Shown here one piece after another: positions 26,281 to 49,835 of a stretch of DNA of 64,000 nucleotides (positions are counted from its first letter, which is position 1; each line of letters begins with the position of its first letter). The translations under genes were made by a program, and so were the position numbers. Source of the stretch: Marivita sp. GX14005 (lineage in GTDB: Bacteria > Pseudomonadota > Alphaproteobacteria > Rhodobacterales > Rhodobacteraceae); the NCBI RefSeq assembly GCF_023370775.1, contig NZ_JAMCCQ010000001.1, forward strand, positions 310,001-374,000. The letters are read 5' to 3'. The notes beneath the pieces were generated by a model, which was not told the origin of the DNA, did not search any database, and saw only the letters and a list, made by a program, of their open reading frames with translations.

Positions 26281-26285
26281 TGGCC
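26281..26285. repeat. Left copy of 5-bp target-site duplication
   Basis: TGGCC immediately before the left transposon end. The same five bases follow the right end at 49831-49835. A 5-bp duplication is the known signature of Tn7/Tn5053-type transposition. Confidence 0.8.
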
Positions 26286-26315
26286 TGTGGAGACATAGCA
26301 AAACGTGACCATTCC
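26286..26315 (+). repeat. Left terminal inverted repeat
   Basis: The element begins TGTGGA, then a 24-base block (26292-26315, starting GACATAGC and ending CCATTCC) that occurs in perfect inverted form at 49802-49825. The outermost bases TGT also match the right end (ACA on the plus strand), though the spacer between TGT and the 24-mer is one base longer on the left. Confidence 0.93.
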
Positions 26316-28993: not shown

Positions 28994-31201
28994 TCAGTCC
29001 TCCTCGATCGTGATGTTGGTTGACTTGGCGGGCAGGTCCGAGGGTGCGGTCGCATCGCCAGACGGCTTTTTCGGCGCGTTGTGATCCATGGGAACACCGG
29101 TCAGTTCTTCCGTGGACGGAATATGATGGCCCAGTTCACCCTTCTGCTGAGCAGGCGCCTTGCGCTCGAAGAACTCGACGCCGACCAACAGGTCCCGCTC
29201 GGCGCGCTCCATGCGCTCCTCCGACCAGTCCTCAAGGTTCAAGCTGGACGCCTGCTTAGCCTGCTCGTTGCGATCATTGATGGCCTTGATGGCTTCGCGC
29301 ACCGCCACATTGGCCAAGCGGTTCGAGGTCGGGTTGGCCGAACGGGTATGCCGGATAGCCGTCAGCCAGGTCTGTGCAGCAACCCCTTTCAGGGAAGTGT
29401 CCAGGGCCGGAACCTCGAACCATTCCTTGCCCAACCGAACCGAAATCGCACCCATATCCTTTGGGTGCCACCGCACATCAACCATGTGCGGATCCTTGCG
29501 GCGCATATAGGTTTGCAGATGTTCAGCCTGGTAACGCACCCCAAGGATCGTGATCCCGGTCTTGTCGAGACGATACTGGCGCTGCTGCCCGAAACACAGG
29601 CGCATCATTTCCATATCAGGCGGAGGAAGAACCCCGTACTCCTTGCTCAGGCGACGCCACGCGTTGACGGGTGTCTCGCCATTCAGCCCACCGTGAGGCG
29701 TATTGTGGTAGATGTCCGTCACCCAACGGATCAGGGCAAAAGTGAAGTCATCCAGGGTTAGGACGGCCCGCTTCTCCGGATCGGCATCACCTTTCTCGAT
29801 GATGCTGCTGAAAGTGTGACCGGTCAGTCGTGGTGCAAAATCGCTTGCGAAAGTACCAAACACCCGCTCGATGGTTCCGCGGTTCTCAGGCACACCGTTC
29901 ATTGCCATTTCCCATGCGACGCCGAGATCGCTAGCCGACATGCGAAACCGCTGCGACTTGAAGGCTGCGCCGCCGTCGAAAACGATTAGTTCAGGCGTGC
30001 CATGCATGTCCCAAGGCGTCATGCCGCCCACAGCATCTGACCACGCGCCTTTGTTGGTCGTGATCATCTGCAAAAGCTGAATAGCCGCTTCCTCTCCGGG
30101 ATTGCGGCTCAAAACCATCCCAACGATGCAGCGCGTGGCACAACAGATTGCGGCGGTCAGTGTCCAGCGACCACACTTTTTGCGCTTCGTCTTGCCCGAT
30201 CCATCTTCATCACCTTCGACGTAGAGACCCAGCGAACGCTTCGCGTCATCCTCCAGGAGGTCATAAATCCCGCTGCTCTGCATCAGCGTCATGACATCGA
30301 CCGTCCACTCGTCAATCTCAACGCGCTCCAAAGGCCGCGTCACCGAGACGCCGTTCAGAACCGGCCGGAACTTCTTGCGCGCGGCGGCTTCCCCGTTACG
30401 GGCCAATTCAACCTGATAGGGGTCCAGCGCACGGATGGCGCGGCGCACGGTTTCGCGGCTGGGGATGGTAAGCGGTGATTGTCCGTTCGCGACGCGCTGC
30501 TCGTTGCGGTCATGAAAGCTGATCTGCACCTGTTCATGGATATGCTTGATCGATGGCTTTTCCGGAGAGAGATACGTGCGCACCTCTTTCATCACCAGAC
30601 CGATCGCTTCCGGTCCCATGCGGCATGACCGATTGCCGCGGCTGTCGATCCGATCAATAAGGCCGCTCGGGCCGAACTTTTCCATAGCGCTCAGCCACCG
30701 GCGCAGCGTTCTTGGCGATGGAGGAATGCTGAAATCCTCAGCTTTGGGAAGCTTGTCTTTCCCAGAAGGATTTAGATTGTCCGCAAGCTTCATTGCCTTG
30801 GCAATCAGCAAGTCTTCATTCGCCTTAAGGGATTCGTCGGTCTTTTTCAGCGTGCCCTTGTTATAGATCTCCAAAAGGGCTTGCGCGTAGGCTTCACGCT
30901 TGGTCACACGTGTCTTTCTGCCCGAAACAAGACCACCGTAAGCAGTGCTCATCTGAAGTTGGCGCTTTGCCGCAAAGCGAGGATCAAAGTATCCTTGCTC
31001 AACCCGAATTGCGTGTGCATTGCCGAGCCGCTGCATCTCCTGATGTGGGAAGTGCCGTGCGAGTTGCGTTTCGTCATCGCGAACGAACACAAGGCCAACT
31101 TCCGTTTCCTGATGGAGCCGATATCCGACGCCTTCAATGGTGACGCGATCAAACTTGCCAAAGGCGTAGTGGGCATTTTTGTTGGTGAACGAGAGATCCA
31201 T
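28994..31201 (-). CDS. tniA: TniA/TnsB-type DDE transposase
   Basis: A 735-residue retroviral-integrase-fold transposase. N-terminal helix-turn-helix domains (about residues 95-260) include PSPRTLRRWLSAMEKFG. The catalytic triad is Asp297 (VEIDEW), Asp409 (ELIVFDGGAAFKS) and Glu445 (ENRGTIERVFGTF). The Mu-type C-terminal barrel (YRLDKTGITILGVRYQ, VRWHPKDMGAISVRL) and a charged tail that usually contacts TniB follow. It cuts and joins the 3' ends of the element. Confidence 0.95.
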   Translation of the reverse strand: MDLSFTNKNAHYAFGKFDRVTIEGVGYRLHQETEVGLVFVRDDETQLARHFPHQEMQRLGNAHAIRVEQGYFDPRFAAKRQLQMSTAYGGLVSGRKTRVTKREAYAQALLEIYNKGTLKKTDESLKANEDLLIAKAMKLADNLNPSGKDKLPKAEDFSIPPSPRTLRRWLSAMEKFGPSGLIDRIDSRGNRSCRMGPEAIGLVMKEVRTYLSPEKPSIKHIHEQVQISFHDRNEQRVANGQSPLTIPSRETVRRAIRALDPYQVELARNGEAAARKKFRPVLNGVSVTRPLERVEIDEWTVDVMTLMQSSGIYDLLEDDAKRSLGLYVEGDEDGSGKTKRKKCGRWTLTAAICCATRCIVGMVLSRNPGEEAAIQLLQMITTNKGAWSDAVGGMTPWDMHGTPELIVFDGGAAFKSQRFRMSASDLGVAWEMAMNGVPENRGTIERVFGTFASDFAPRLTGHTFSSIIEKGDADPEKRAVLTLDDFTFALIRWVTDIYHNTPHGGLNGETPVNAWRRLSKEYGVLPPPDMEMMRLCFGQQRQYRLDKTGITILGVRYQAEHLQTYMRRKDPHMVDVRWHPKDMGAISVRLGKEWFEVPALDTSLKGVAAQTWLTAIRHTRSANPTSNRLANVAVREAIKAINDRNEQAKQASSLNLEDWSEERMERAERDLLVGVEFFERKAPAQQKGELGHHIPSTEELTGVPMDHNAPKKPSGDATAPSDLPAKSTNITIEED

Positions 31202-31590: not shown

Positions 31591-32268
31591 TCAGATCATG
31601 CGCGTCCGCATGATTTCCGTGCTGCGCTCGATGCGTTCATGACGCACCATCTGGAGGTGGCCTGAACGGATCAGTCGAACGATGGCGCGAAAGCCCATTC
31701 CCTCGAGGCGTGTCTCGTCCACAAGGGCACCAACGGTCGTGGTGCCGCAGACCTTTCTGGATGCATCCTGAGCGACGGGGTCCGCAAAGGCATCAGGGCG
31801 ACGTACCGAGTGGAACAGCTTCGCATTGTGTAGTTCGACCGGGCAGACGTCCTCTTCGGTGAACAAGCGGAAATCGTCCAGAAAACACTGCGCAATGGCC
31901 TGCTCTTTGATACGCGCGAGCTTGCACTCATAAGCTTGGCTGACCCGGCTCGCCGGACGAACGGCGTAGCCGCAGACGGTGCCATCGATCCGTGTGACGA
32001 CCAGGTCGATGAAATGGTCAAAAAACTCGCCGTGCTCATCATACCATGCGAACTGAATTTGTTCGACGAGGTCCAAAGTGTTTGGACGGTAGCCCAACAA
32101 CAGGGCAGCGTTAGTCTCAAGATGGCTTTCAGTGCCAAGGCGCACGCCTTCCTGATCACCCAGGACGAGGCCGCCGGTAAAGTGCTTGGTCGAGCCAACT
32201 TGGGTCTTACGGTTGCCACGGCTGAATGCGGGAAGGCGGATACCGCCGAATTGGAAGTGATAGGACAT
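31591..32268 (-). CDS. tnsA: TnsA-like transposon endonuclease
   Basis: A 225-residue protein. The N-terminal part has the TnsA nuclease layout: ESHLET (Glu47/Glu51), then LVEQIQFAWYDEHGEFFDHFIDLVV with catalytic-type Asp88, then a strand ending YAVRP. In Tn7 TnsA the last position is Lys; here it is Arg104. The C-terminal part (GMGFRAIVRLIRSGHLQMVRHE) resembles a winged-helix for partner or DNA contact. TnsA cuts the 5' ends so the element leaves the donor cleanly. Start at 32268 is preceded by a GAAAGAGA site; a longer frame to 32397 lacks support. Confidence 0.75.
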   Translation of the reverse strand: MSYHFQFGGIRLPAFSRGNRKTQVGSTKHFTGGLVLGDQEGVRLGTESHLETNAALLLGYRPNTLDLVEQIQFAWYDEHGEFFDHFIDLVVTRIDGTVCGYAVRPASRVSQAYECKLARIKEQAIAQCFLDDFRLFTEEDVCPVELHNAKLFHSVRRPDAFADPVAQDASRKVCGTTTVGALVDETRLEGMGFRAIVRLIRSGHLQMVRHERIERSTEIMRTRMI

Positions 32269-33226
32269 GATCGTCTCTTTCTTTCGAACATAAGAAGGGG
32301 ATCGCTGCCCGAGAGTTCGGAAAGCGGTTGACCCCAGAAGCCGTCCAACCGATTTCGCCAAGGCGCTGAGCACCCGTCGTGAAACTGCTGAAGACAAGCC
32401 TCTCCTGTCCCCATCTGGAGATGGGTTGGGCGGGATCTGTCATGTGTGAAAAGACCGATGTCCTTGAAGCGATCGCGTTAAGGTGATAGCTTCACGTTGA
32501 AGTCAGGAAGACCTCGGTCTTTCGAGTTAAGTCGCGGTCTGTTGGCGCAGATCGCGATTTTCATTTTTAAGGTTCGGGCATCATCGTTCCTTTACTTGTT
32601 TTTTCTCAGCGTTCGGCTGTCGGTACGCTACCAACAAACTCAGCTTGAGAAAACTTTTTTCCGTTTTAATTCAGAGCCTTACGAAACTCAGAGCGACTCA
32701 TTTTTCGCATATGGGTCCCCAGCTGTAGTTGTGTTTGCCCACGGCTGCCTTGCGAAACCCGGTATCGACCAAGTCACCACGCACTTCCGAACGACGCGCG
32801 AAAAATTACCTGAGTCTTTATATCAGGAATTATTCTTTGTCTTACCTTCCACAAATGATTCCGGAGTCTAGTCCATCAAACCATGGGATTCGCAGGGCGA
32901 ATATAGGCATCGCGTCAATTCAATATGGCCGAGGCCAGAAGGAAGGTACCTGGAGAAAAACACGGTCTTCGCTTTCGCACGCTTCTTTCGAACCCGGCGC
33001 GCGGAACCGCACCGAGGTGGCCTGAGTCAGGCTATCCGTATGAGACGGGAAAAGTTATGAAGCGTTCTTTGTGTCATGGGCCAAGAAATGCACAATGCGC
33101 TGATCGAAAACAAGAAACGCATTGGCAATCGGGACCCGCGGTGTGACGGATTGTGGCGAGGTCGCAACAAAACCTGACTGCGTGAAGAGTAGATATTGTT
33201 AAGGCTTGTGTCGATGAGCTACCTCC

Positions 33227-33508: not shown

Positions 33509-33581
33509 GCTGACTTTCTTGTTTTTGCTTGACTTTGAAGTTTAGTCGATCCATGTATCGAAAATGAAAACAGAGGTCCTC

Positions 33582-33857
33582 ATGAACAAAACAGAACACA
33601 TTGATACCAGAATGAACCATCGTGCCATTCGCGGAGATCTCGTAGCCCTCACAATGGAGATTGGTGACGTAGAAGGCGATCGCATCGTCTTATCGTCAGA
33701 AGCGATCAGCGCAGAGGAGGCCGAGCTGCGACATCGGCTTAAGTTGCTCGCGGACGCTCGAAAGAAAGGTGGGGTGGTTGTGGTTGCCGAAGGCGAAAAC
33801 CTTATAACCACCTACCGCAAATCCAACTTCAATGCTAACTTGATAAGAAATAGTTAG
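33582..33857 (+). CDS. Small DUF4258-like protein
   Basis: A 91-residue protein (start at ATG 33582 after AGAGG; an ATG at 33564 would add 6 residues). The pattern TEHIDTRMNHRAIRGDLVAL, GDVEGDRIVLSS and the end KKGGVVVVAEGENLITTYRKSN resembles DUF4258/BrnT-like small proteins, which include toxins of toxin-antitoxin pairs; here no antitoxin gene is seen. It is 20 bases ahead of the pseudo-methylase gene and likely in its operon. Confidence 0.6.
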   Translation: MNKTEHIDTRMNHRAIRGDLVALTMEIGDVEGDRIVLSSEAISAEEAELRHRLKLLADARKKGGVVVVAEGENLITTYRKSNFNANLIRNS

Positions 33858-33877: not shown

Positions 33878-35605
33878 ATGAAACTACTAGACTCTCTTTC
33901 ACAATTCCGCAGTACGATGCGCTCCGATGAGAGCTTTGCGCTTTTCGTCAAGGTCGCAGCGGCAGTCGCGCGCGGCGAAACCCCGCAAAATCCGATCGCT
34001 AGGACAATTTCCGACATTGATCTGGATACGCTCATTGCAACATCGCAACGGCTTCTGTCAGAAGCGCCGTCGGAGCGCTTCGCAGCAATCATGGACTATG
34101 TCGATGCGCTGATACTTGGGGCGTCCAATCACGGCCCAGATGTTTGGATCCGCAAAGGTGCCTGTTTGCAGCTTACGAAGCTCATTGGCGATGCCCCGCA
34201 GGTACGCTTTTCCTTCGGCATGAGCTTAAGACCATGTATGACTTTTCTCGCATCCAAGCGAGATCAAGGGACCACCGCTACTGCTGAGTTCTGTTCTCCC
34301 AATACGGACGAATGTGATTTTGCCTCAGACTTGGCCGCGATTGCAGATCTTGAAAGCCACCTGACTATCGTACAGGCGATGCCCTGGGACGACCATACGA
34401 CGCGGAAAGATGCTATCGAAGTCATCTTGCCCCCATTCGGACTAGACGTGTCAAAATATGAGACCTTACCCCAGAGCCTGCTGTCGTTCCTCGACTTGGA
34501 TGAAAGGCAATCGGTTCGACTGAATTGCGAAACAGCCTCTATTTCTAATGCCCTTCAACGCACATTAAACCGCGTCATTATCTCGACCTCTGACGGTGAG
34601 CTTTTCCGCATGGTTGGCACTGAAAAAGTCGCGCGGCGAAACTTGATCGATAGTGGACGTCTGAAAGCTGTCATGGCTGTTCCTTCAGGGATGATGTTCG
34701 CGAACACAGGCATCAAAACGAACCTCGTGGTGATTGATCCCGCCGACAAGAAGGCCGACACCGTGCGGCTCGTAGACCTCGGCCATGCAACCGTCACGCA
34801 GAAGGGGCGTCGTGGTAGGTTAGAGGTCGCCGATGATGCTGATTGGCGCGCCCTCCTCGACTCGCAAGGCTCTGAAGACCCCACCCTTGTCCGGGATGTG
34901 GATTTGGACAAAGTCATGGCCAATAACACCGTGCTCGTGCCCGTGCGCTACCTCAACAGTGGTGCGCGCGATCGGATTGACGCTCTTCTGGCCAAGTCTG
35001 ATGTTGCGGCGCTCGAAGATATTGTCGAACTGATCCGCCCTGTCACGATCTCCGAGGACGAAGAAGGCGAGTACACCCTCTTCGAAGCCGCCCCGGGCGA
35101 CGTGAACAAACGAGGCTTCATCGCCGAGCCGCGCCGCGAAATCAGCGTCTCACGACCAAAGTACAACAAGGCCTTCAACCAGCAACTCCGCCCAGGCGAC
35201 GTACTCCTCTCTATAAAGGGGAATGTGGGGATCACGGCCCTCGCGCCGGATGATGTGCCCAAGGAAGGAGAGAGCGTGATCTGGACCTCAGGGCAATCCA
35301 TGATGATCCTGCGCCCAAAGCAACGTATCCATGTCAGTAGTCTTGCCCTCTTCGAATATCTCTCCAACGCGACCGTAAGGGAGCATCTGCAATCCATCGC
35401 CGGTGGAACAGCGATCCAGACGCTTGCCATGAAGGATATCAAGTCGCTGCCGATCCCGGTGCCGGATGACAAGACCCTTGCAGATGTCGAAGCCGGCTTT
35501 GCCGAACGGCAAAAGCTATTCGATCAGATCGACGCGTTAGAGCATGCAGTGGCCAAGACAAGAAACCAAAGCTGGCCCCATAAAGTGCTTTTTGAGGGCG
35601 GATGA
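33878..35605 (+). CDS. Degenerate N6-adenine methylase fused to an HsdS-like specificity domain
   Basis: A 575-residue protein. Residues 1-330 follow the layout of HsdM-type methylases, with LIDSGRLKAVMAVPSGMMFANTGIKTNLVVIDP as in the region after the catalytic motif. The motif expected to be NPPF reads LPPFG (DAIEVILPPFGLD), and no DPACGTG-type SAM motif is present. Residues about 400-575 resemble an HsdS target-recognition domain (LRPGDVLLSIKGNVGI, IAGGTAIQTLAMKDIKSLPIPVP, then a coiled coil). It is probably not a methyltransferase by itself. It lies 112 bases ahead of hsdM on the same strand and may add specificity or sense DNA. Confidence 0.75.
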   Translation: MKLLDSLSQFRSTMRSDESFALFVKVAAAVARGETPQNPIARTISDIDLDTLIATSQRLLSEAPSERFAAIMDYVDALILGASNHGPDVWIRKGACLQLTKLIGDAPQVRFSFGMSLRPCMTFLASKRDQGTTATAEFCSPNTDECDFASDLAAIADLESHLTIVQAMPWDDHTTRKDAIEVILPPFGLDVSKYETLPQSLLSFLDLDERQSVRLNCETASISNALQRTLNRVIISTSDGELFRMVGTEKVARRNLIDSGRLKAVMAVPSGMMFANTGIKTNLVVIDPADKKADTVRLVDLGHATVTQKGRRGRLEVADDADWRALLDSQGSEDPTLVRDVDLDKVMANNTVLVPVRYLNSGARDRIDALLAKSDVAALEDIVELIRPVTISEDEEGEYTLFEAAPGDVNKRGFIAEPRREISVSRPKYNKAFNQQLRPGDVLLSIKGNVGITALAPDDVPKEGESVIWTSGQSMMILRPKQRIHVSSLALFEYLSNATVREHLQSIAGGTAIQTLAMKDIKSLPIPVPDDKTLADVEAGFAERQKLFDQIDALEHAVAKTRNQSWPHKVLFEGG

Positions 35606-35717: not shown

Positions 35718-37757
35718 TTGAGCACGGACACCATCAATAACAACGCTTCTTTCATCTGGTCTATCGCGGAACTGCTGCGCGGTGATTTCAAGCAATCCGA
35801 ATATGGCAAGATCGTCTTGCCCTTCACCATCCTGCGGCGGCTTGATTGCCTTTTGGACGGGACCAAACAAGCTGTCCTCGACGAGGTCGCCAACATGCCC
35901 GAGGGCATCGACGACGAGATGCGCATGGACATCCTGTGTGATGCGGCGGACGCGGGCGGACAGATCTACAATGAAAGCCAATTCACCTTCGCAACCCTGC
36001 GCCAGCAGGACGCGGGGCAGCTGCGCACCAACCTCGTGGACTACCTGGCGGGCTTCAGCCCCAATGTTCGCGACATCTTCATCGAGAAGTTCAAGCTGAC
36101 CGAGATTCTGAAAGACCTCGACGAGAAAGGCTCGCTCTGGATGGTCTTCGACCGCTTCTGCCAGATCGACCTGCACCCCGACAAGATCACCAACCTCGAA
36201 ATGGGATACCTTTTCGAAGAGCTGATCCGTCGCTTCTCCGAAATGTCGAACGAGACCGCGGGGGAACACTTCACCCCGCGCGAGGTCGTCCGCCTGTTGG
36301 TTGATCTGCTGCTGGCCAATGACGAAGAGGCGCTGTCGGGCAAGGGCATCATCCGCCGGGTCTATGACCCTGCTTGCGGCACGGGCGGCATGCTGTCTGT
36401 GGCCGAGGAATCCATGAAAGCACTCAACGACGGGCTCAAGGTCGACCTCTTCGGGCAGGAACTGAACGGCGAGTCCTTCGCGATCTGCAAATCTGACATG
36501 ATGGTCAAAGGCCACGACGCCTCACGCATTGCCTATGGTAACACCCTGACTGAAGACGCCCACCGCGCTGAGACCTTCCACTATATGCTCTCCAATCCGC
36601 CCTACGGCGTCGACTGGAAGAAATACGCCGCCCCCATCAAGGAAGAAGCCGAGGACCTGGGCCACCAGGGCCGCTTCGGCGCGGGCCTGCCCAGCACGTC
36701 TGACGGGCAACTCCTGTTCGTGCAGCACATGATCTCCAAGATGCGAGACGATGAAAAGGGCTCGCGCGTGGGGATCGTCATGAACGGCTCGCCGCTGTTC
36801 TCGGGTGGCGCGGCCTCGGGCTATTCCGAAATCCGCCGCTGGCTCATGGAAACCGATCTTGTGGAGGCGATCATCGCCCTGCCCACGGACATTTTCTACA
36901 ATACCGGCATCCAGACCTACATCTGGATTCTGTCCAATCGCAAGCCTGCGGAGCGGCGCGGCAAGGTACAGTTGATCGACGCCAGCGGCGAGCGGTTCTG
37001 GCAGTCCATGCGCAAGTCTCTGGGGTCCAAACGCCGCGAGATCGGCGATGTGGCACGGGCCGAGATCGTGCGCATCTATGGCGATTTCCTGAATGGCCAG
37101 TCGGGCTATGGCGACGTGTCCAAGATCTTCGACACGACCGACTTCGGCTATCGCGAGATCCGGGTGGAACGCCCCCTACGGCTTAGGCTTGAAATCACCC
37201 ATGATCTGCTGGGCGCCCTCAAGGCCGATGAAAAAGCCATGGCTGCGCTGGAGAAGGCGGGCAAGAAGTTCGATGGCTTCACCGACAAAGTGCGCGCCAT
37301 GCTGGAGGAGAAACTGGGCGAGGCCTGGATGGATCGCGCCGTGTTTATCGCTGACGTGACGGACGCCATGGCCGAGCGCGGGGTCAAGCTGCCTGCCGCA
37401 GCGCTCAAGGTGCTGGTGGCGCAGTTTTGCAAGCCGCACGAAGAGGCCGAGATCTGCACCGACAAGAACGGCGATCCCGAACCCGATACCAAGCTGCGCG
37501 ATCACGAGCTGGTGCCCCTGGGCGAGGACTGGCAGGCGTATTTCGCGCGCGAGGTCGAGCCCTTCGTGCCCGACGCCTGGGTGGATACATCCCATGTGGA
37601 CGCTACCGACCGTCAGGTGGGCCGCGTGGGCTACGAGATCAACTTCAACCGGTATTTCTATCAGTACGTGCCGCCGCGGCCGCTGGAGGAGATTGATGCG
37701 GAGCTGAAGGCACTGGAAGCCGGTATTGCAGGGCTGCTGAAAGAGAGTGTGGCGTGA
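35718..37757 (+). CDS. hsdM: Type I restriction-modification DNA methyltransferase HsdM
   Basis: A 679-residue N6-adenine methylase. The N-terminal HsdM helical domain is SFIWSIAELLRGDFKQSEYGKIVLPFTILRRL-like. The SAM motif DPACGTGGM is at about residue 217 and the catalytic NPPYG at about 293. The C-terminal extension is longer than in classical HsdM. It protects host DNA and pairs with HsdS. The start is TTG at 35718, 7 bases after AGGAG. Its stop overlaps the hsdS ATG (TGATG). Confidence 0.95.
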   Translation: MSTDTINNNASFIWSIAELLRGDFKQSEYGKIVLPFTILRRLDCLLDGTKQAVLDEVANMPEGIDDEMRMDILCDAADAGGQIYNESQFTFATLRQQDAGQLRTNLVDYLAGFSPNVRDIFIEKFKLTEILKDLDEKGSLWMVFDRFCQIDLHPDKITNLEMGYLFEELIRRFSEMSNETAGEHFTPREVVRLLVDLLLANDEEALSGKGIIRRVYDPACGTGGMLSVAEESMKALNDGLKVDLFGQELNGESFAICKSDMMVKGHDASRIAYGNTLTEDAHRAETFHYMLSNPPYGVDWKKYAAPIKEEAEDLGHQGRFGAGLPSTSDGQLLFVQHMISKMRDDEKGSRVGIVMNGSPLFSGGAASGYSEIRRWLMETDLVEAIIALPTDIFYNTGIQTYIWILSNRKPAERRGKVQLIDASGERFWQSMRKSLGSKRREIGDVARAEIVRIYGDFLNGQSGYGDVSKIFDTTDFGYREIRVERPLRLRLEITHDLLGALKADEKAMAALEKAGKKFDGFTDKVRAMLEEKLGEAWMDRAVFIADVTDAMAERGVKLPAAALKVLVAQFCKPHEEAEICTDKNGDPEPDTKLRDHELVPLGEDWQAYFAREVEPFVPDAWVDTSHVDATDRQVGRVGYEINFNRYFYQYVPPRPLEEIDAELKALEAGIAGLLKESVA

Positions 37758-38260
37758 TGCGGCTTCGACACCTGCTCAGTGTTGCGCCGTCACCATCGGA
37801 AATCGGTGAGATTGGTGACGGCGATGAGGTAACATTCGCACCCATGGATGCGCTCCAAGATGGCCTTGGAGGTCTTGATACAAGCATAACTAAGCCATTG
37901 GGTGAAGTGCGATCAGGCAGTTACAATTTCTTTGCAGATGGTGATGTCCTACTGGCAAAAGTGACACCCTGTTTTGAAAACGGCAAAAAAGCCCTCGCAA
38001 CCAAGCTTATGAACGGAATTGGCTTTGCTACATCCGAAGTTCATGTCGTGCGTCCGAACCGATCAAAGCTTGATCCCCAATTTCTGATCTACCTTCTTTC
38101 TAGTGAAGACTTTCGAGCAGAAGGCCTGAAAAGTATGACAGGCGCGGGCGGCTTGAAGCGAGTTAGCGAAAAAGCAATCTTGAACTATCGACTAGTTGTA
38201 ACCGACCTCCCCACCCAAAAACGGATCCGCCTTCCTCGACCGCGAAACCGCGCGCATTGA
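37757..38260 (+). pseudogene. hsdS: HsdS, N-terminal half (frameshifted specificity subunit)
   Basis: 167 residues: a first target-recognition domain (SYNFFADGDVLLAKVTPCFENGK, GIGFATSEVHVVRP, GAGGLKRVSEKAILNYRLVV) and the beginning of the central conserved helix (DLPTQKRI). The frame then leaves the HsdS sequence and stops at 38258-38260. The missing continuation FLDRETARID is in the next frame from 38232, so a single-base insertion or two-base deletion occurred at about 38227-38229. The ATG overlaps the hsdM stop. Confidence 0.88.
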
Positions 38261-38261
38261 T

Positions 38262-39044
38262 ATGCTGATCGAGTTGCGCGCAAAATTTGAGGCAAAAGTA
38301 CAAGAGAGCCGAGAAGCCCTTGTTGCTAGTCTACTGGTTGGATTGCCGGAAGAAAGCCAGCGCCCATCCACGACCGACTGGCTTGAAAACCTGCCGTGCG
38401 AGATCAATCGAGAACGGGCGAAGGTCCATTTTCGGGAGCGCGTGGAGCTAAGTGAGAATGGCGAAGAGGAATTGCTCACCGTTTCACATCTCGCGGGCGT
38501 CACAAAGCGTTCAGAAAAAACCGTGAACATGATCATGGCCGAAAGTCATGAGGGTTATAAGCTTGTCCAGCCTGATGACCTTGTGATCAATACGATGTGG
38601 GCGTGGATGGGCGCCATGGGTGTCAGCAAAGAAGCCGGCCTCATAAGTCCAGCCTATGGGATTTATCGCCCGACCAGTGGCAAGTTGTTACCTGAATACC
38701 TGGATCTTTTGGTGCGCTCCAAACCTTTCGTCGCCGAGGCAACGCGGCGCAGCAAGGGAATCCACTCTTCCCGACTTCGCCTATACGCGGACGCGTTCTT
38801 GGATATGCGCTTGCCCGTTCCAACTTTGGAACGACAGTCAAGAATATTGCAGCAGGTCAGGGCACGTGCTGCCCGAGAAGACACGCTCGTAAGAAAGAAT
38901 GCGAAGGCTACAGAACTACTCCGCGAATACCGTGCCGCCCTAATCACCGCCGCCGTCACAGGCCAAATCGACGTGGACAGCTACACCCGCACCGAAACGA
39001 CCTCCGCCACCCTCGACCGGATTGAAGGGGAGATGCAGGAATGA
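38262..39044 (+). pseudogene. hsdS: HsdS, C-terminal half (frameshifted specificity subunit)
   Basis: 260 residues in the frame after the shift: the rest of the central helix (MLIELRAKFEAKVQESREALVAS), a second target-recognition domain (KTVNMIMAESHEGYKLVQPDDLVINTMWAWMGAMGV, then SKGIHSSRLRLYADAFLDMRLPVP) and the C-terminal conserved helix (REYRAALITAAVTGQIDV). The ATG lies one base after the stop of the first half, so re-initiation could make two half-subunits instead of none. Its stop overlaps the CBS-HEPN ATG by 4 bases. Confidence 0.85.
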
Positions 39045-39883
39045 ATGCGCCTGTCGTATCGGTCGCCAGCTACCGAACAGGGGATCACTCTGCCCTGCAG
39101 GCGCAGCTGACGGTAGACCAGATCATGACCCCAAGGGATGCATTCCTCTGCGCACTCGAGGGTCAGACCGTTGCCGAGGCTTTTCAGCACGTGCCCGAAG
39201 TCTATGACGCGCTGCCCGTCATCGAAGGCAATGACCCAAGGGACCCCGCAGCGGAAGTCATCGGCATCATAGACTGCCGGGAAGTCGCACCAGCTGAGAT
39301 GCGTCAGTCAGTGTCAACGCACATGCAGGAGCGACACTGTGTGGGCATCCGCAGTACCCTTCCCCTGTTGGAGTTCGCGGCAAGCGGACGCGTTGATGAG
39401 CTGACATTTGTGACCGCAGACGAGCGGTCCATTGTGTGTGGCCTCGTCACCGTTCACGATTTGCAGAGGCTGCCTGTTCGGATTGCCTTATTCGCTGCTT
39501 TGACCGATCTGGAAGAGGACATTGCAGGGTTGCTCGATCTTGCCGCTCCTGATCCGGCTAAATGGCACACGTTGGTCCACGATCCACGCGGGATCATCAA
39601 GATCGAGATTGAAAAAGGGCTCAAGCGCGCGGCCAGGCGTGACGATCTTGGGTCGCCTATCCTGACTTTGTCCTTCGGGATCAAACTTGCCCTGCTTGAA
39701 GGGCTGAAAAACAGTGGACAGCTTGCAGGCGTTGCCATTCCGAACCTTCGAAACATCCGGGATGCCCGAAACGATATCGCCCACGGCATTCCATTCGAGC
39801 GCATTGAGATCGTGCCTAAGGCGGCACGGGATCTGCGCAACCTGCATTCATCTGTAAAGACATTGATTGCGAGACACCAATGA
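39041..39883 (+). CDS. CBS-domain protein with HEPN-like C-terminus, inside the hsd operon
   Basis: A 280-residue protein. Residues about 20-150 form a pair of CBS-like repeats (LTVDQIMTPRDAFLCALEGQTVAEAF; VIGIIDCREV; ERSIVCGLVTVHDLQRL), which commonly bind adenine nucleotides. Residues about 155-280 are helical and contain ARNDIAHG, with Arg243-x4-His248, the signature of HEPN RNases. Both ends overlap neighbouring hsd genes by 4 bases, so it is translated as part of the restriction system. I infer a nucleotide-sensing RNase or regulator of HsdR; neither is shown. Confidence 0.75.
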   Translation: MNAPVVSVASYRTGDHSALQAQLTVDQIMTPRDAFLCALEGQTVAEAFQHVPEVYDALPVIEGNDPRDPAAEVIGIIDCREVAPAEMRQSVSTHMQERHCVGIRSTLPLLEFAASGRVDELTFVTADERSIVCGLVTVHDLQRLPVRIALFAALTDLEEDIAGLLDLAAPDPAKWHTLVHDPRGIIKIEIEKGLKRAARRDDLGSPILTLSFGIKLALLEGLKNSGQLAGVAIPNLRNIRDARNDIAHGIPFERIEIVPKAARDLRNLHSSVKTLIARHQ

Positions 39884-42800
39884 CCAGCCCCGAAATCTCC
39901 CGAGACAAGCTGCACACCGAAGAAGCGGTCGAAGTACATCTGGTGGACCAGCTCGTCCGTCAGCAAGGTTGGGTCGAGCGGCCCTGGCAGGCCTTTGACC
40001 GCAAGACAGCGCTGGACTCCGAGATGATCGAGCAGTTCGTGCGTAACACGCAAGCGGCCGCTTGGGACAAGCTCTGCGGGCAGTACCCTGGCAAGGAGCG
40101 TGAGACGCTCGTACGGCAGGTGGAGGCGCGTCTGAAGGCCGTGGGCACCCTCGACGTGCTGCGCGGCGGCATCACCATCGTGCCGGGCATCAAGATCGAC
40201 CTGTGCGCCTTCAAGCCAGCGTCTGGCCTTAATCCCGCGACCTTGCGCGCCTATGAGGGCAATATCCTTGGGGTCATGCGGCAGGTGCGGTATTCCCAGC
40301 GGTCCGAGAACGCAATTGACGTGGTGCTCTTCGTCAATGGCATTCCTGTGGTGACGTTGGAGTTGAAGAACACCCTCACCGGATCGACCTATCAGACCGC
40401 TGAGGCGCAGTATCGCAAGGACCGCTCGCCCAATGGCGAGCCTCTGCTGACCTTCAAGCGCGGCGGGTTGGTGCATTTCGCGTTGGATCAGGACAACGTG
40501 TCGATGACCACGCGGCTGGACAATGGCCGCACCCGCTTCCTGCCCTTCAACCGGGGCCGCGATGGCGGTGCGGGCAACCCGGACGTGGAGGACGAGTTCC
40601 GCATCGCATATCTATATCGCGATATCGGCGCGCGGCAGGCGGTGTTCTCGCGCGAGGTGTTCCTGTCGATCCTGCATCGCTTCGTTCTGGTTGATGAGGT
40701 CGAACAGCCCGGCGGCAAGGTCAAACGCACGACGATCTGGCCGCGCTTCCAGCAGCTCGACGCAGTGCGGATGCTGGTGCAGGACGCTAAGACCAACGGC
40801 GCCGGGCAGAACTACCTATTTCAGCATTCCGCCGGCTCTGGAAAATCCAACACGATCGCATGGGCCGCGCATCACTTGGCCACGCTGCATGACGATGAGG
40901 ACAAAGCGATCTTTGATACGATTATCATTGTGACCGACCGCGTCGTTCTGGACCGCCAGTTGCAGCAGACAGTGAAGTCCTTCGCTCAGACCGACAAATA
41001 TGTTCGACCGATCGACGGCACCTCGCGACAGCTGAAAAAAGCGATTGAGGAAGGCGCGAAGATCATCATCTCAACGATCCATAAGTTCTCGACCGATCAG
41101 CTGTCGGTTCTAAAAAATGAGGACGGCAAGCGCTTCGCAATCATCATCGACGAGGCGCATAGCTCGCAATCGGGCAAGCACGCCGACAGCATGGCAAAGG
41201 TGCTGGCCGATGGGGAATTGAGCGATGAGGAAAAGGAGCTGGCCGCCACCGAGCAGGCCCTGCTGGAACTGCAACGTCTACGCGGCCCTCAGGCCAATCT
41301 GTCATACCTCGCCTTCACTGCAACACCCAAGAACGTCACGCTGGAGCGTTTCGGCCAAATGGGTGAAAACGGCCCAGAGCCCTTCCACCTCTACTCGATG
41401 CGGCAGGCCGTGGAGGAAGGCTTCATCCTCGATGTCTTGCGAAACTATCAAACCTACAGCTCCTACGCAAAGCTGGAGAAGGCGATCGAAGATAATCCCG
41501 AGCTGCTGGAGCGAAAGTCCGCCCGCAAGGTCGCGCGATTCATCGATTTCCATGAGTATTCCATGAGCCAGAAGGCCGAGGTGATCGTCGAGCACTTCCG
41601 TCGCCATGCCCTGCCGGAGCTGTCCGGTCAGGCCAAGGCCATGGTGGTCACGGCCAGCCGCGAACACGCGATCCGAACCCAGATGGCCATCGCCAAATAC
41701 ATCGAAGATCATGGCTACACCGACGTCCGCGCCCTGGTTGCGTTTTCCTGCGAAATCAACGTGGACGGCCAGCCCTACACCGAAGCCGGCATGAACGGGT
41801 TTGGCGAAACGGAACTGCCACGGCAATTCGACGGGAACGGCTATAACGTCCTCGTGGTAGCTCAGAAGTACCAAACGGGGTTTGATCAACCGAAACTGGT
41901 GGCGATGTATGTGGATCGCCGTCTGAGCGGTCTGCAAGCCGTCCAGACACTTGCGCGCCTTAACCGGATCTACCCATGCAAGGATCGCACCTTCATTCTC
42001 GATTTCCGCAATTCCGTCGAGGAGATACAGGAGGCGTTCAAGCCCTACCACAACGTCACGACTCTCGAAGACCTGTCCGACCCCAACCAGGTCTATAACC
42101 TTGAAGCACGCCTCAAGACGTTTGGAGTCATTGATCAGGCCGAAATCGACCGGTTCATCGAGCGCTTCCTTGCGGCGCGCCAGAGGGCCGACGAGAGGCC
42201 GATCCTGGAAGGCATAGTCCGTCAGGCTGTCTCGCGGTTCTCCGAGAACCTGAACGAGGAGGATCAGGAAGAATTCCGGCAGGTCCTCGCTTCTTTCCTG
42301 CGCTTCTATTCCTTCATCGCGCAGGTGGTCGATATGGGCGACACGGACCTTGAGAAGCTGCATGTCTACGGGTCATGGCTCAAGCGCATCCTGCCGAGCC
42401 GGCAGGCGCCCCACGGGGAGGATGTCACTGACGACATGCTGGAACTTGAGGCGTACCGACTGGAGAAAGAAGGCGGCCCCATGGATGCAAGCCTCGATCG
42501 GGACGACAATGCACCGCTTAGCCCGATCGACCGGTTCGGTGCCAACCCCTTCACCGAAGAAGAGTCTAAAACTCTTGCCGAGATCATTGAGGCCTTCAAC
42601 AGCCGCCATGGGACCAACTTCACCGACGATGACTACATTCGGTTTGAGGCGGTGAACAACGACATCTTGGCTGACGATGATTTCGCCGAGATGCTCCGCA
42701 ACAACGATCCTCGCGACGTCCGCCCCCATTTTGACAAGGAATTCATGCGCCGTGCCCGGCAGGCCTTCCAACGGGATAACGCTATGCGGAACGCATTCAT

Positions 42801-42885
42801 GCAGGACGAGGAGGCGCGCAAGATGCTCATGGCGTTGATGTTCCAGCGAGCAATGCGGGGGGCGGGAAACACAGCTCCGAGGTGA
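39880..42885 (+). CDS. hsdR: Type I restriction endonuclease subunit HsdR
   Basis: A 1001-residue translocating nuclease. The N-terminal PD-(D/E)xK site is NAIDVVLFVNGIPVVTLELKN (Glu-x-Lys at about residue 160). The SF2 motor has Walker A HSAGSGKSNT at about 316-325, IIIDEAH at about 422-428 and YLAFTATP motif III; motif VI lies around KYQTGFDQPKL / LARLNRIYPCKD. The C-terminus is helical and binds HsdM-HsdS. It cleaves unmethylated DNA at a distance after translocation. Start overlaps the CBS-HEPN stop. Looks intact although hsdS is frameshifted. Confidence 0.95.
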   Translation: MTSPEISRDKLHTEEAVEVHLVDQLVRQQGWVERPWQAFDRKTALDSEMIEQFVRNTQAAAWDKLCGQYPGKERETLVRQVEARLKAVGTLDVLRGGITIVPGIKIDLCAFKPASGLNPATLRAYEGNILGVMRQVRYSQRSENAIDVVLFVNGIPVVTLELKNTLTGSTYQTAEAQYRKDRSPNGEPLLTFKRGGLVHFALDQDNVSMTTRLDNGRTRFLPFNRGRDGGAGNPDVEDEFRIAYLYRDIGARQAVFSREVFLSILHRFVLVDEVEQPGGKVKRTTIWPRFQQLDAVRMLVQDAKTNGAGQNYLFQHSAGSGKSNTIAWAAHHLATLHDDEDKAIFDTIIIVTDRVVLDRQLQQTVKSFAQTDKYVRPIDGTSRQLKKAIEEGAKIIISTIHKFSTDQLSVLKNEDGKRFAIIIDEAHSSQSGKHADSMAKVLADGELSDEEKELAATEQALLELQRLRGPQANLSYLAFTATPKNVTLERFGQMGENGPEPFHLYSMRQAVEEGFILDVLRNYQTYSSYAKLEKAIEDNPELLERKSARKVARFIDFHEYSMSQKAEVIVEHFRRHALPELSGQAKAMVVTASREHAIRTQMAIAKYIEDHGYTDVRALVAFSCEINVDGQPYTEAGMNGFGETELPRQFDGNGYNVLVVAQKYQTGFDQPKLVAMYVDRRLSGLQAVQTLARLNRIYPCKDRTFILDFRNSVEEIQEAFKPYHNVTTLEDLSDPNQVYNLEARLKTFGVIDQAEIDRFIERFLAARQRADERPILEGIVRQAVSRFSENLNEEDQEEFRQVLASFLRFYSFIAQVVDMGDTDLEKLHVYGSWLKRILPSRQAPHGEDVTDDMLELEAYRLEKEGGPMDASLDRDDNAPLSPIDRFGANPFTEEESKTLAEIIEAFNSRHGTNFTDDDYIRFEAVNNDILADDDFAEMLRNNDPRDVRPHFDKEFMRRARQAFQRDNAMRNAFMQDEEARKMLMALMFQRAMRGAGNTAPR

Positions 42886-43067: not shown

Positions 43068-44360
43068 TCACCGCTCCAGATGGATTCGAACTGAAAACCC
43101 TGACAGCTGATCCACTTGGATCGGGCCGAACGTCCAGAAATCTCGTAGGACTTCTGCATGCGGGTGGCCGTAGCTAAGGCTTGGCTCAGAGCTAAATACG
43201 CTTGTCGTCGGCGCAGCAAGTGCCGCAAGGCCATCGTGCCAATTGGCCCTCGCACCATGATGCGCAACCTGAAACACGCTAACGCGTCTTGCGCGGCGCG
43301 CATCAAGGTAACTCTCAAAACTGTCCCATTTCTCCGCAGCGTTCAGATTCCCATCGCCTGTTAGCAGAATCGCACCTCTCGTTTCATGTTCCTTCCAACA
43401 GCCGCAAGCGCCGATAAGTCGGCGATAAACGCAATCACAATTGCAAATCCTTTGCCCCATCCAAGGTCCAACTGCACCGCCATAAAGGAGTAAACTGACA
43501 TTGTTCATCGCCGCCCCACGACCGAAGTTAGTCTCATAGAGCTTCCTTAGGTCATCAAGGGCACTTTGCCGTTTGTTTTCGCTGCTGTTCAGCAGCGAGC
43601 CTCGATATGTGTCGACTTTTGAAGCAAACCCAAATGTGTCATCTGGTTTTGTCGCGGGATCATTGTAAGGCAGAAATTCCCAAACCCCATAGATGGCAAT
43701 TGCGTTGCCAGGAGGAAGCATCCGAATGCGATGGTCCAAGTCACCGTACGCACCTTCCAAATCGCCATATGAAACTGGTTCGCCGGGCCCAGACGGCTTT
43801 TCGGGGTCATCAAACTCTTCGGGCGGTTCGGGAGCTGCAGTTGGTTCGGGTGAGAATGGTGGCCCATCATCGTTAGAGGGCATAACGAACAGGACCTGTT
43901 CAAACCCGTCACCCGCCTCCTGGGTGAAGTATTGCACTGGGTCGACATAGAACAACATCTCGGGGTCTTCTGCCCTCAGCCCTTGTTCAAAACCGATCAG
44001 TAGGCGATGCCACAAGGGTGCCCACGGTAGCATTACTGTCTTGGCACCGATCACATTCAGCAGTTCAACTACACCGCTGATATGGTCATTGTGGAAATGC
44101 GAAAGGGTGAGAAGGTCGATTTTCTCACCACGGCAATCACGTTTCAAATCGTCGATCGCGTTGGTGACTAGCCGCTTTCCCGAACTGGATCCACAATCAT
44201 AGACCCAGCGATATGGCCCGAGCGGTGCCGGTCTCGACGGTCCGCCAGTATCTACAATTCGGCGCGGTCTTCGTCGGGGAGGCCAGAACTCTACCGAACC
44301 GGTGGCAAACAAGCCTTGCCCAACTGGAAAGAACCGATGAACCGCGCGAATTTCGGTCAT
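43068..44360 (-). CDS. MBL-fold metallohydrolase (ComEC-type catalytic domain)
   Basis: A 430-residue metallo-beta-lactamase-fold protein. The metal motif is LTLSHFHNDHISGV at about residues 86-99 (HxHxDH). The C-terminal VFQVAHHGARANW corresponds to the ComEC-like HHG motif. An acidic, Pro-rich insert (PEPTAAPEPPEEFDDPEKPSG) sits in the middle, and CNCDCVYRRLIGACGC is a Cys cluster that may bind an extra metal. No membrane segments. Its ATG overlaps the stop of the 64-residue HsdS-tail-like gene by 3 bases. Substrate unknown; nucleic acid is plausible. Between hsdR (42885) and this gene I see nothing. Confidence 0.8.
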   Translation of the reverse strand: MTEIRAVHRFFPVGQGLFATGSVEFWPPRRRPRRIVDTGGPSRPAPLGPYRWVYDCGSSSGKRLVTNAIDDLKRDCRGEKIDLLTLSHFHNDHISGVVELLNVIGAKTVMLPWAPLWHRLLIGFEQGLRAEDPEMLFYVDPVQYFTQEAGDGFEQVLFVMPSNDDGPPFSPEPTAAPEPPEEFDDPEKPSGPGEPVSYGDLEGAYGDLDHRIRMLPPGNAIAIYGVWEFLPYNDPATKPDDTFGFASKVDTYRGSLLNSSENKRQSALDDLRKLYETNFGRGAAMNNVSLLLYGGAVGPWMGQRICNCDCVYRRLIGACGCWKEHETRGAILLTGDGNLNAAEKWDSFESYLDARRARRVSVFQVAHHGARANWHDGLAALAAPTTSVFSSEPSLSYGHPHAEVLRDFWTFGPIQVDQLSGFSVRIHLER

Positions 44361-44666: not shown

Positions 44667-47300
44667 TCAAGAAACCCGGTTCATCTTGGAGCGCAAACCT
44701 TCAGTCCAGTCCTGCAACGACTTAATGTCAGCCATGACTTCCGATGGCTCTGGTGGCTCGGGATCATGGCCGCGGGAAGGATCATGCGCGTCGACAAAGT
44801 CGCAGCATTTTTTGAACCCTTTTTGGAAAATCTGCACATCGGCCTCTTCCAAGGCTGTGACGCGTTTCAGATTTTTGGTGTCAATGTAATCGCGGTGGCG
44901 CATTACAACTTTGTTAAATACGATGTCCTCTAGCGCCCGTTCCCAAGTCGCACGCAATCGGCTGTAGAGCGAAGATACTGCCGTTTTGTAGGCCTCGTCG
45001 TCATTCTCCTCGAACAGGCGCGTTGCCGCGCGAGCTTCTTTTTCAAGTTTGTCAATCCGGTCTCGAATACTAGAGGCCGTCCAAGGCAAGTCCTTGTTTA
45101 CGATGCCGACGACATCCTGTCCGCGCGTAAGATGCGCCAGCTTAGTCGGCGTATTTCGCTGCGAAGCCAACTGTGCCAGATCGTTGACGAAGATCATGTC
45201 ATGCGTGAACACGATTACTTGCCGCACGCCGGCTTCCTTTGCCAGGCGCTTGGCGACTTTTGAACGCCAGCGATGATCGAGCGAGGAAACCGGATCATCG
45301 AACACAAGCGCCGATGTGTGCGATGCGTTCGCTAGTTCGGTAAGGTATGAAGCCAACGCAACGCACGTCTGCTCACCCTCGCTGAGCACATCATGAACCT
45401 TGGCCTTAGGGTTGGCATAGAGCTTTACTTCATATTGCGGTGAACCGAATTTGCCCCCCGAGCGCACGACCTCGACCCGCACCCGATTACCAGCCAGCGC
45501 AACGATCTCTTGTTGAAACCGGTCGCGCATACGCGGCGTGATAAGATTGTCGGCGATTTCGTTCCCGAGCCGCGTGATCGCAGTGGTGGCAGTGTCGCGC
45601 AAGCAGTCTTCAATGCGCTTTAACTCTGCGAGCCTCGCGATCTCTGTTTTCGCAATATCCAGCAACTCGTGACTTTGTTTCCGATCCTGCAAATCGGCCT
45701 GTTCATCGAGCAAGGCTTCCCGTGCTTCGCAGCCGGATGCATCATCGAGAGAAGCCGCATAGACTCGTGTCTGCGCAGCTTCGGTGTTTACCGCCTCCGC
45801 GACGGATTCCGGCAAAGCCAACGGATTCGGAACATCTTGGCCGGATAGCTGTGCAAGAGTCTGCCCCTGTACACGCCGCGCAAGCGCGATGAACCTCAGC
45901 ACTTGCCTTGCGAGCGCGAAGTTTCCGGCTCTCAAACTTCGATATGCCGCCGAGACCTTGTTAACGTGAACGACCATGGAGCGGAATTTTTGCTCTGCTT
46001 CCTTGAAGGCGTGCTCAGCTTCAGCCGCTTTAGTTTCTGTGTCCTTCTTGATGAAATCTTCAAAGCCAAGCATCCGCGCCGCGGTAGGCTCGTCGATTTG
46101 CTGATGGCACAGAACGCAGATATCTCCAGCCGATGGTGGAAACGGCGTACCACCTTCCTTCGCCATTTGCGAATATGATCTGGCGGATTCCCAGAGAGTC
46201 CGCCAGACGGTTTCACCAACGCCAACAAGCGCCAATCCAGAGAACGCATCATGCGCTGCCGTGTTGGCGGCCATGCGCATGTCGTCAGCACCCTTTTTCG
46301 TCGCATGTAGCGCCTGACGGGCCTCGTCATTCAGCGTCTGCTCGATCCGCTTCAAATAGGTTTCCAATTGATCGAGCTGGGCTGCGTAGTCGCGTTGGGC
46401 TTGTGCCGCCACGGCGGAGTCTTGAGCGAGATCGGATTGAAGCTTGATCAGGCGCGCTTCGTCTGCATTCGAAAAGGCTGTCTTGGGCGTTACGGCGCCG
46501 ACATCGGTATCATGACGAAGCGAAGACAGGGCTTTGCCAAGCTCAGAGCGGCTTGACCAGATCGGATTGAGGAAAACAGAGTTACGTTTTTGCTCCAGTG
46601 TTTCTTGCTCGGTCGTCAGGCGCGCCTTTATTTCCTGACAAACACCGGCGAGGTCATCCGGAATATCAAGGCCGAAGGGGCGGAACCAAACCTCATTCTT
46701 CTTCTGAACGTGTACCGAAGCCGCATCACGGTCGAAGACCGTAATGGCGGAAAGCATCTCTTCGGTCTGACCCTCATCTTCCCATGCGACCGTTTCCGCT
46801 GTGCCACTGGCACGCGAAATTTTCAGCTCGGCCTTTGCAGTGCGCGTTGGCGAAGCGCTGTAAACATCAGGCATGATCTCGCCGGCATGTCTTGAGCGAC
46901 AAGCCCTCTTGAGAATCCGAGTGTAGCCAGATTTTCCGGTGCCGTTCTGGCCGTAAACTATGGTCAGGCCTGACTCCTCAAAGTTCAGGGTCTGACCGGT
47001 TGCCAGCTGATTGACACCAGAAACATTTGCGATGCCGGACAGGGAAACTGACTCGCCGACACCAGGATCAACCGGCAGGTGGTCCTTCGAGAGTGGCCTG
47101 GCTGCCAAAGTCACCGTCTCATCGCCGTGCTCTTTCTTGCAGAGCGCCAATAACTCCTCGAACGCAGCTTCGTCCGGATAGCCGTTTAGTACAATGCGGC
47201 GCAGGGCATCGCGTTGCCATAGCGGGCGGTTTTCCGACCACGCTAGAATTCGCATAGGGACAGTATCGTCGCTTTTTTCTATATTCGCGCTGTCCGGCAT
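44667..47300 (-). CDS. AAA_13-type ABC ATPase, PrrC/RloC-like
   Basis: An 877-residue SMC-like ATPase. Walker A is YGQNGTGKSG at residues 116-125. A central coiled-coil region (about 250-620) carries CVLC at about 394, a possible zinc hook. The signature region is VLSEGEQTCVALASYL and Walker B ALVFDDPVSSLDH is at about 667-680. The C-terminal segment RATWERALEDIVFNKVVMRH is typical of AAA_13 proteins; relatives PrrC and RloC cut tRNA and guard restriction systems, but I cannot show a nuclease site here. Start at 47300 follows GAGGGG; a longer start at 47345 is possible. Located beside hsd genes on the opposite strand. Confidence 0.78.
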   Translation of the reverse strand: MPDSANIEKSDDTVPMRILAWSENRPLWQRDALRRIVLNGYPDEAAFEELLALCKKEHGDETVTLAARPLSKDHLPVDPGVGESVSLSGIANVSGVNQLATGQTLNFEESGLTIVYGQNGTGKSGYTRILKRACRSRHAGEIMPDVYSASPTRTAKAELKISRASGTAETVAWEDEGQTEEMLSAITVFDRDAASVHVQKKNEVWFRPFGLDIPDDLAGVCQEIKARLTTEQETLEQKRNSVFLNPIWSSRSELGKALSSLRHDTDVGAVTPKTAFSNADEARLIKLQSDLAQDSAVAAQAQRDYAAQLDQLETYLKRIEQTLNDEARQALHATKKGADDMRMAANTAAHDAFSGLALVGVGETVWRTLWESARSYSQMAKEGGTPFPPSAGDICVLCHQQIDEPTAARMLGFEDFIKKDTETKAAEAEHAFKEAEQKFRSMVVHVNKVSAAYRSLRAGNFALARQVLRFIALARRVQGQTLAQLSGQDVPNPLALPESVAEAVNTEAAQTRVYAASLDDASGCEAREALLDEQADLQDRKQSHELLDIAKTEIARLAELKRIEDCLRDTATTAITRLGNEIADNLITPRMRDRFQQEIVALAGNRVRVEVVRSGGKFGSPQYEVKLYANPKAKVHDVLSEGEQTCVALASYLTELANASHTSALVFDDPVSSLDHRWRSKVAKRLAKEAGVRQVIVFTHDMIFVNDLAQLASQRNTPTKLAHLTRGQDVVGIVNKDLPWTASSIRDRIDKLEKEARAATRLFEENDDEAYKTAVSSLYSRLRATWERALEDIVFNKVVMRHRDYIDTKNLKRVTALEEADVQIFQKGFKKCCDFVDAHDPSRGHDPEPPEPSEVMADIKSLQDWTEGLRSKMNRVS

Positions 47301-47565
47301 CACCGTTTCAACCCCTCTCTCACACAACATACTTTTCAAAAACAAAAGGCTACAAGTGTCGGGTCAATGACGGAAGCTCATTTTCTTATTGGCTGTTGAA
47401 TCTATTAAAGGCGCAAGAAGTCATGGCGTATGGATGTATGCGCGACGCTATTGCGAGCTTACGCTCATGGTAACTCGATAGCTTGCGAATGCCTCGAACA
47501 GCCGCTCTTCGCGCATCTTGTAGTCTGACGTCACGCTTTGGCATGTATCAGATAATTTGATGAGT

Positions 47566-49801: not shown

Positions 49802-49830
49802 GGAATGGTCACGTTTTGCTATGTCAGACA
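49802..49830 (-). repeat. Right terminal inverted repeat
   Basis: 49802-49825 is the exact inverted copy of 26292-26315, followed by AGACA, so the element ends in ACA as the left end begins with TGT. Immediately beyond is the TGGCC duplication. Confidence 0.93.
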
Positions 49831-49835
49831 TGGCC
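49831..49835. repeat. Right copy of 5-bp target-site duplication
   Basis: TGGCC, identical to 26281-26285. It lies 20 bases beyond the 3' end of nrdJ, so the chromosomal gene is intact. Confidence 0.8.

Follow-up and report, generated by a model that had tools for sequence, protein, structure and literature searches.

Why does a gene for a predicted nucleotide-gated RNase lie inside a type I restriction operon, and does its product depend on the restriction enzyme encoded around it? The question is raised by a gene of Marivita sp. GX14005, found in a stretch of 64,000 nucleotides that is called the window below. The gene (39041-39883, forward strand) is an intact open reading frame of 280 amino acids situated between hsdS and hsdR. 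It shares four bases with hsdS, which ends at 39044, and four with hsdR, which starts at 39880; both junctions read ATGA. The overlaps reported in a preliminary description of the locus are therefore real.

The protein consists of a CBS pair (approximately residues 16-142), a linker with the sequence DLQRLPVR (140-147), and a HEPN-like helical domain (144-279). This order, a CBS-like pair followed by a helical domain with ARNDIAHG, had first been read from the sequence and is borne out by profile searches and by an AlphaFold model with a pLDDT of 85. The CBS pair is of known fold, as judged by profiles and by structure comparison of the model. It begins near residue 16-26, and its Pfam match reaches 19.4 bits against a cut-off of 24.

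In the HEPN-like part, the model places helices at residues 144-168, 172-178, 185-199, 212-224, 236-248, and 257-279. The motif A242-R243-N-D-I-A-H248-G249 contains the predicted RNase active site, R243-N-D-I-A-H248 (codons 39767-39784), and its R-x4-H pattern falls at the end of the helix 236-248, as in HEPN RNases. HEPN families are matched below their curated cut-offs by the window protein (12.3 bits against 28.4 in Pfam) and by its relatives. Among 16 members, the weak matches are to RiboL-PSP (8), Swt1 (4), DUF4145 (3), Apea (2), and Abi_2 (2). The fold matches listed for the model are filled by CBS pairs and include no HEPN structure, so that this list hardly probes the second domain. 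A profile search of solved structures returned no significant HEPN protein, the best matches being bacterioferritins (E 0.02); HepS (9oij) matches weakly, over 37 positions (E 0.09). No ATPase domain was matched in the window protein by Pfam, PADLOC, or NCBIfam profiles.

Evidence for the predicted active site can also be provided by its conservation. An alignment of 27 rows was used, comprising 18 standalone proteins of the window type, five proteins with an additional HD domain (HD-CBS-HEPN), and four DS-11 proteins. R243 and H248 have the same letters in all 27 rows, and N or D follows the arginine in 26 of 27. The aligned pair is credible in 26 rows; the remaining one, an HD-CBS-HEPN protein (L052), retains its HD motif but lacks R-[ND]-x3-H and has a tail that looks damaged, so its aligned arginine and histidine are due to chance. 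E158 is present in every row. Within the HEPN parts of 16 standalone proteins, the invariant residues are E158, W175, R183, K215, R243, and H248. The HEPN active site is described, in an extract of PMC3710099, as Rx4-6H with a polar residue after the arginine and an extra acidic residue, and the pattern of conserved residues fits this description.

CBS repeats can carry a ligand-type motif, G-h-h-[T/S]-x-x-D. It is kept in the second repeat, where G134 and D140 occur in 27 of 27 rows and T/S137 in 25; the first repeat lacks T/S-x-x-D. Taken together, the modelled CBS pair and the conserved R-x4-H most likely mark a predicted RNase of the HEPN type. The R-x4-H pair that had been singled out in the window protein is thus conserved in its homologues. 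The window row itself has a very long branch in the tree (1.97), and its activity may therefore have drifted.

The family is sparsely distributed. With the window protein as query, matches are found in three of 195 relatives, its own genome among them. In a sample of the phylum, five of 398 genomes match at E 0.01, and CBS-HEPN proteins are seen only in the own genome and in Frateuria (G393). More relatives are reached with a three-row alignment (A1), in which the window and Frateuria rows both come from hsd operons. It matches 64 of the 274 genomes from Frateuria's class, mostly through the CBS region of longer proteins, four of 385 in the window's own class at E 1e-8, and 17 loci in a scan of 84,980 species. 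Neither a scan of genome contigs with the window protein alone nor a plasmid search with it gave a match. The Frateuria protein has three plasmid matches, all haloarchaeal, with no hsd gene in view. One viral-contig scan, made with a single short peptide pattern, revealed no virus-borne copies. A random insertion or chance reading frame is ruled out by the homologues in hsd operons and elsewhere.

To see how often the gene accompanies restriction genes, 16 intact standalone bacterial loci can be compared: 14 of the 17 scan loci, the window, and L059. Loci that run off the contig (L065), have a truncated or broken frame (L069, L071), or are archaeal (L042-L044) were left out. The gene belongs to a type I operon at five of the 16, versus none of eight HD-CBS-HEPN and none of four DS-11 loci; the count is three of 14 once the two hsd-derived query rows of A1 are set aside. 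Four other hsd operons besides that of the window thus hold a relative.

If X denotes the CBS-HEPN gene, the arrangement is hsdM-hsdS-X-hsdR in the window. Frateuria terrea has X-hsdM-hsdS...hsdR, with a four-base ATGA overlap of X with hsdM. An alphaproteobacterial metagenome-assembled genome, or MAG (L060), has hsdR...hsdM-hsdS-X, with an EcoEI-type hsdR that includes DUF4145. In L064, a Rhodobacteraceae MAG, the order is hsdM-hsdS-X-OGG-like-hsdR, with a four-base ATGA overlap of X with hsdS. Finally, Maritalea (L070) shows hsdM-hsdS-Y-OGG-like-X-hsdR. Both the position of the gene and the type of HsdR therefore vary.

A BLAST control (E 1e-8), with hsd queries from the window and Frateuria operons only, detected hsd genes at four of 30 other loci, namely L060, L064, L070, and Frateuria. 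Several contigs are short (L050, 4.5 kb; L062, L072, and L075, 7-8 kb; L045 and L100, about 9 kb), so the absence of hsd genes there counts weakly. L064 and L070 are sister rows in the tree (support 98/97), and their placements may represent one event. With L052 left out, the hsd label needs two changes on the tree, although the placement may have a single origin.

No hsd operon is in view at the remaining 11 of the 16 loci, which makes the protein seemingly independent of HsdR. One of these standalone genes adjoins a helicase, with Dcm- and Vsr-like genes recognized by eye (L066), and another adjoins helicase-like and DUF262-like genes, also by eye (L076). Others, such as L062, lie among housekeeping genes. 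Two alphaproteobacterial MAGs (L072, L074) have common neighbours of the gene, including a J-domain-like gene assigned by eye, and no hsd gene in view.

The operon of the window begins with hsdM (35718-37757, +; PADLOC MTase_I PDLC03029, 884 bits; Pfam N6_Mtase and HsdM_N). Two pieces with PADLOC matches to Specificity_I follow, one of 168 amino acids (37754-38260, +) and one of 260 (38262-39044, +). A congener (L121) has an intact HsdS of 420 residues; the first piece aligns with its residues 1-158 at 59% identity, and the end of the second matches its residues 334-418 at 40%. Since the two pieces match the start and the end of one reading frame, hsdS is frameshifted in the window; the frameshift may be real or may be an assembly error. 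The second piece starts with an ATG one base past the first stop codon, so the two might conceivably be made as half-subunits by coupled translation. The operon ends with hsdR (39880-42885, +), which matches Pfam HSDR_N, SWI2_SNF2, and a T1R_D3-like domain, and scores 199 bits with TIGR00348, short of its cut-off of 284.55.

Upstream of hsdM lie genes for a 97-residue protein of unassigned function (33564-33857, +) and for a 575-residue HsdM/HsdS-like protein that has the C-terminal portion of N6_Mtase and one specificity domain (33878-35605, +). Both have homologues at the matching place in another operon, L122 (43% identity, E 2e-24, and 37%, respectively), so the two genes may belong to this subtype of restriction-modification system.

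The gap between hsdS and hsdR can be followed beyond the window. The window HsdR has relatives in 20 of 176 related genomes, its own included (E 1e-100), and in 760 plasmid records (E 1e-50). Twenty loci were surveyed, ten from genomes and ten from plasmids, and the junction is readable in 14. The others were dropped because hsdS was not in view (L116, L117, L124), was not found (L125), or was not the annotation of the upstream gene (L131, L132). The gap is empty in three of the 14 (L127, L130, L134) and holds other cargo in 11; BLAST finds no CBS-HEPN gene in any of the 14. It is a variable cargo slot.

Three loci (L118, L122, L123) carry a family of 130-136 amino acids, and a fourth (L119) carries a 421-residue protein that joins the N-terminus of this family to HNH_2. 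A VCH_CASS14 protein, HNH_2, and a 203-residue protein with RNAVAH occupy L120, and a 197-residue homologue of the latter with RNSVAH (31%, E 3e-29) occupies L121. The rest hold Mrr and two unknowns (L126), an unknown protein (L128), AAA and HNH (L129), DUF5655 (L133), and VapC with small proteins (L135). Such a slot is a hunting ground for more defence genes. The proteins of about 200 residues with R-N-[A/S]-V-A-H, from two congeners (L120:5763-6374 and L121:6611-7204, both reverse strand), are HEPN-like by motif only and have no Pfam match. One of the surveyed loci, L123, is the second type I operon of the window genome; an Abi_2 gene (199.9 bits; L123:10033-10941, reverse strand) lies there between hsdM and hsdS.

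The whole operon is carried by a complete Tn7-like transposon of 23,545 bp (26286-49830) with TGT...ACA ends. The ends have perfect 24-nucleotide inverted repeats (26292-26315 and 49802-49825) and a second pair at 88%, and the element is flanked by a 5-bp target duplication, TGGCC (26281-26285 and 49831-49835). Profile matches identify TniQ (26473-28023), TniB/TnsC (28023-28991), and a TnsB-like Mu-type transposase (28994-31201), all on the reverse strand; together with the ends and the duplication, these genes define the element as Tn7-like. A TnsA-like gene (31591-32397, reverse strand) was recognized by eye only and has no Pfam match.

Besides the hsd operon, the cargo includes a second, defence-like gene cluster. 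The genes carried outside the operon encode a metallo-beta-lactamase fold, a PDC-S06 ATPase, and an AAA protein. The metallo-beta-lactamase-fold protein (43068-44360, reverse strand) has weak matches to the defence proteins LmuA, Avs1a, and 6A-MBL. An AAA/SMC-type protein (44667-47345, reverse strand) matches the candidate defence family PDC-S06 with 682 bits and has a CxxC at residue 410; it is RloC-like by layout only. Defence cargo is known on Tn7-like elements (PMC8649781, extract).

The reading that best accounts for these observations is that the gene encodes a phage-defence HEPN RNase, gated through its CBS pair by an adenine-type nucleotide, which would serve as a second defence layer in a mobile type I operon. 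Its probability is put at roughly 0.62, judging from sequence, model, and analogy. The recurrence of the subfamily in hsd operons, the proteins with R-N-[A/S]-V-A-H in the slot of two congeners, and the Abi_2 gene of the second operon count in its favour. The N-terminal CBS pair would bind the nucleotide. Infection would alter the ligand pool, and a putative CBS dimer would then rearrange the HEPN dimer, which would cut RNA and halt growth. The working mode would resemble that of DS-11 and, by analogy, that of the CARF-HEPN RNases Csx1/Csm6. The gene would be translated together with its neighbours from its place in the cargo slot. The suggestion of the preliminary description, a nucleotide-switched abortive RNase, is supported as the best available account, with catalysis, ligand, trigger, and outcome all predicted; its other suggestions, that the protein modulates HsdR or responds to failed restriction, are conjecture. 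The kind of ligand is hinted at by the closest sister group, in which an HD_4 domain, kin to RelA/SpoT hydrolases, is fused to CBS-HEPN: it may be alarmone-like. If so, the ligand of DS-11 becomes testable.

A tie to the restriction enzyme itself could take the form known from PrrC, which is silenced by its type I restriction-modification enzyme and freed by the phage protein Stp (PMC2610378, PMC3710099, both in extract). The HsdMSR complex would keep the HEPN RNase silent, and a phage protein that disables restriction would release it. Members in five hsd operons, and four-base overlaps with hsdS and hsdR (window), hsdS (L064), or hsdM (Frateuria), speak for such a partnership. However, the sequence in view around 11 of the 16 intact standalone genes shows no hsd operon, and both the position of the gene and the type of HsdR differ between operons. 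The CBS-HEPN gene of the window is intact beside a broken hsdS, and if the frameshift is real the silencing complex would be missing. The protein also has a sensor of its own, so a silencer is unneeded. Control of the PrrC kind is possible, but the lone relatives and the broken hsdS make it an unlikely choice. Still less probable, to the point of being hard to sustain, is a protein that cuts nothing and instead senses ATP or an alarmone to tune HsdR, as in restriction alleviation, with the HEPN domain as a binding module. The gene does adjoin hsdR, and HEPN domains without the motif are regarded as modules for binding (PMC3710099, extract), but R-x4-H and E158 are conserved, and no HsdR is in view near the same 11 of the 16 relatives.

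Conversely, the gene may have no functional tie to restriction and be a self-contained, DS-11-like system that settled in a tolerant, co-mobilized slot. The slot is empty in three of 14 related operons and otherwise holds such different cargo as Mrr, AAA with HNH, HNH_2, DUF5655, VapC, and unknowns, and relatives of the protein also occur alone or adjoining other systems. Against this stand the repeated choice of hsd operons and the overlapping frames, which suggest selection for co-expression. This explanation falls a little short of an even chance; it shares its biochemistry with the preferred second-layer RNase, and the odds of the two overlap. A wider view that would join the observations is doubtful. 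CBS-HEPN proteins would form a nucleotide-signal class parallel to CARF-HEPN, in which an alarmone-type nucleotide is sensed by the CBS pair. In one branch the signal would be removed again by the RelA/SpoT-like HD domain fused to the protein, an off switch. In the hsd branch the signal would come from restriction, for example from the drain of ATP by HsdR translocating on uncut DNA, and RNA would be cut after restriction has failed.

One of the closest known systems, and the experimental anchor for the second-layer RNase proposed here, is DS-11, a CBS-HEPN protein from DefensePredictor whose anti-phage activity was demonstrated in 2026; the extract of PMC13092281 also reports that defence is lost on mutating CBS Y157 (Y157A) or HEPN residues, and that AlphaFold3 predicts ATP binding. 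DS-11 and the window protein are both single proteins in which a HEPN domain with R-x4-H comes after a CBS pair. The two are distantly related by hhalign in the CBS part (96%, E 2e-9) and in the HEPN part (72%, E 3.5e-5). Membership in DS-11 (NF053863) was rejected, since the window protein scores 20.3 bits against a cut-off of 260 (E 2.5e-4) over residues 39-143 only, and lacks the longer N-terminal part that precedes CBS in DS-11 reading frames of 353-362 amino acids. The four DS-11 members (L077-L080) differ further in carrying R-N-[D/E]-[V/I]-M-H and in having no hsd gene in view. By sequence, the window protein belongs to a separate CBS-HEPN subfamily. No homologue with a known activity lies close to it, and DS-11 is reached by profile comparison only. 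A shorter subfamily is thus added beside the one validated anti-phage CBS-HEPN protein, and its invariant residues are available for mutation.

The closest HEPN domain (hhalign 99.7%) is that of the HD-CBS-HEPN proteins, of the alr3009 type listed in PMC3710099 (extract), which have the same order of CBS, linker, and HEPN. They differ by the N-terminal HD domain (HD_4, PF13328, 55.8 bits in L046:223-1578, forward strand) and have no hsd gene in view at eight loci. All eight (L045-L052), from genomes of the class of Frateuria, have HDxVED, and seven have R-N-[H/N]-L-A-H. The fusion as such is not new: CBS-HEPN proteins were already listed in 2013 (PMC3710099, extract), DS-11 has been validated, and HEPN proteins in restriction-modification contexts are known. 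The earlier impression of novelty was too strong as regards the fusion; it holds for the recruitment of this subfamily, repeatedly, into restriction operons, for which no description was found in the open-access literature searched. A related placement is that of the rlo genes, rloC included, inserted within the type I hsd loci of Campylobacter (Miller et al. 2005, via PMC2610378); the extract of that source does not mention CBS-HEPN.

The CARF-HEPN RNases Csx1/Csm6 also combine a nucleotide-sensor domain with HEPN, and a few of 12 relatives have weak PADLOC matches to them. Their sensor is CARF, not CBS, and no CRISPR link was seen at loci of the window family. PrrC, encoded with EcoprrI, and RloC have ABC-ATPase sensors instead of CBS, a domain that the window protein lacks, and PrrC is kept silent by the restriction enzyme. 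What the window protein has in common with them is genetic linkage to a type I locus, which holds for RloC only sometimes; like them, it would be a HEPN-type RNase acting as a second line of defence.
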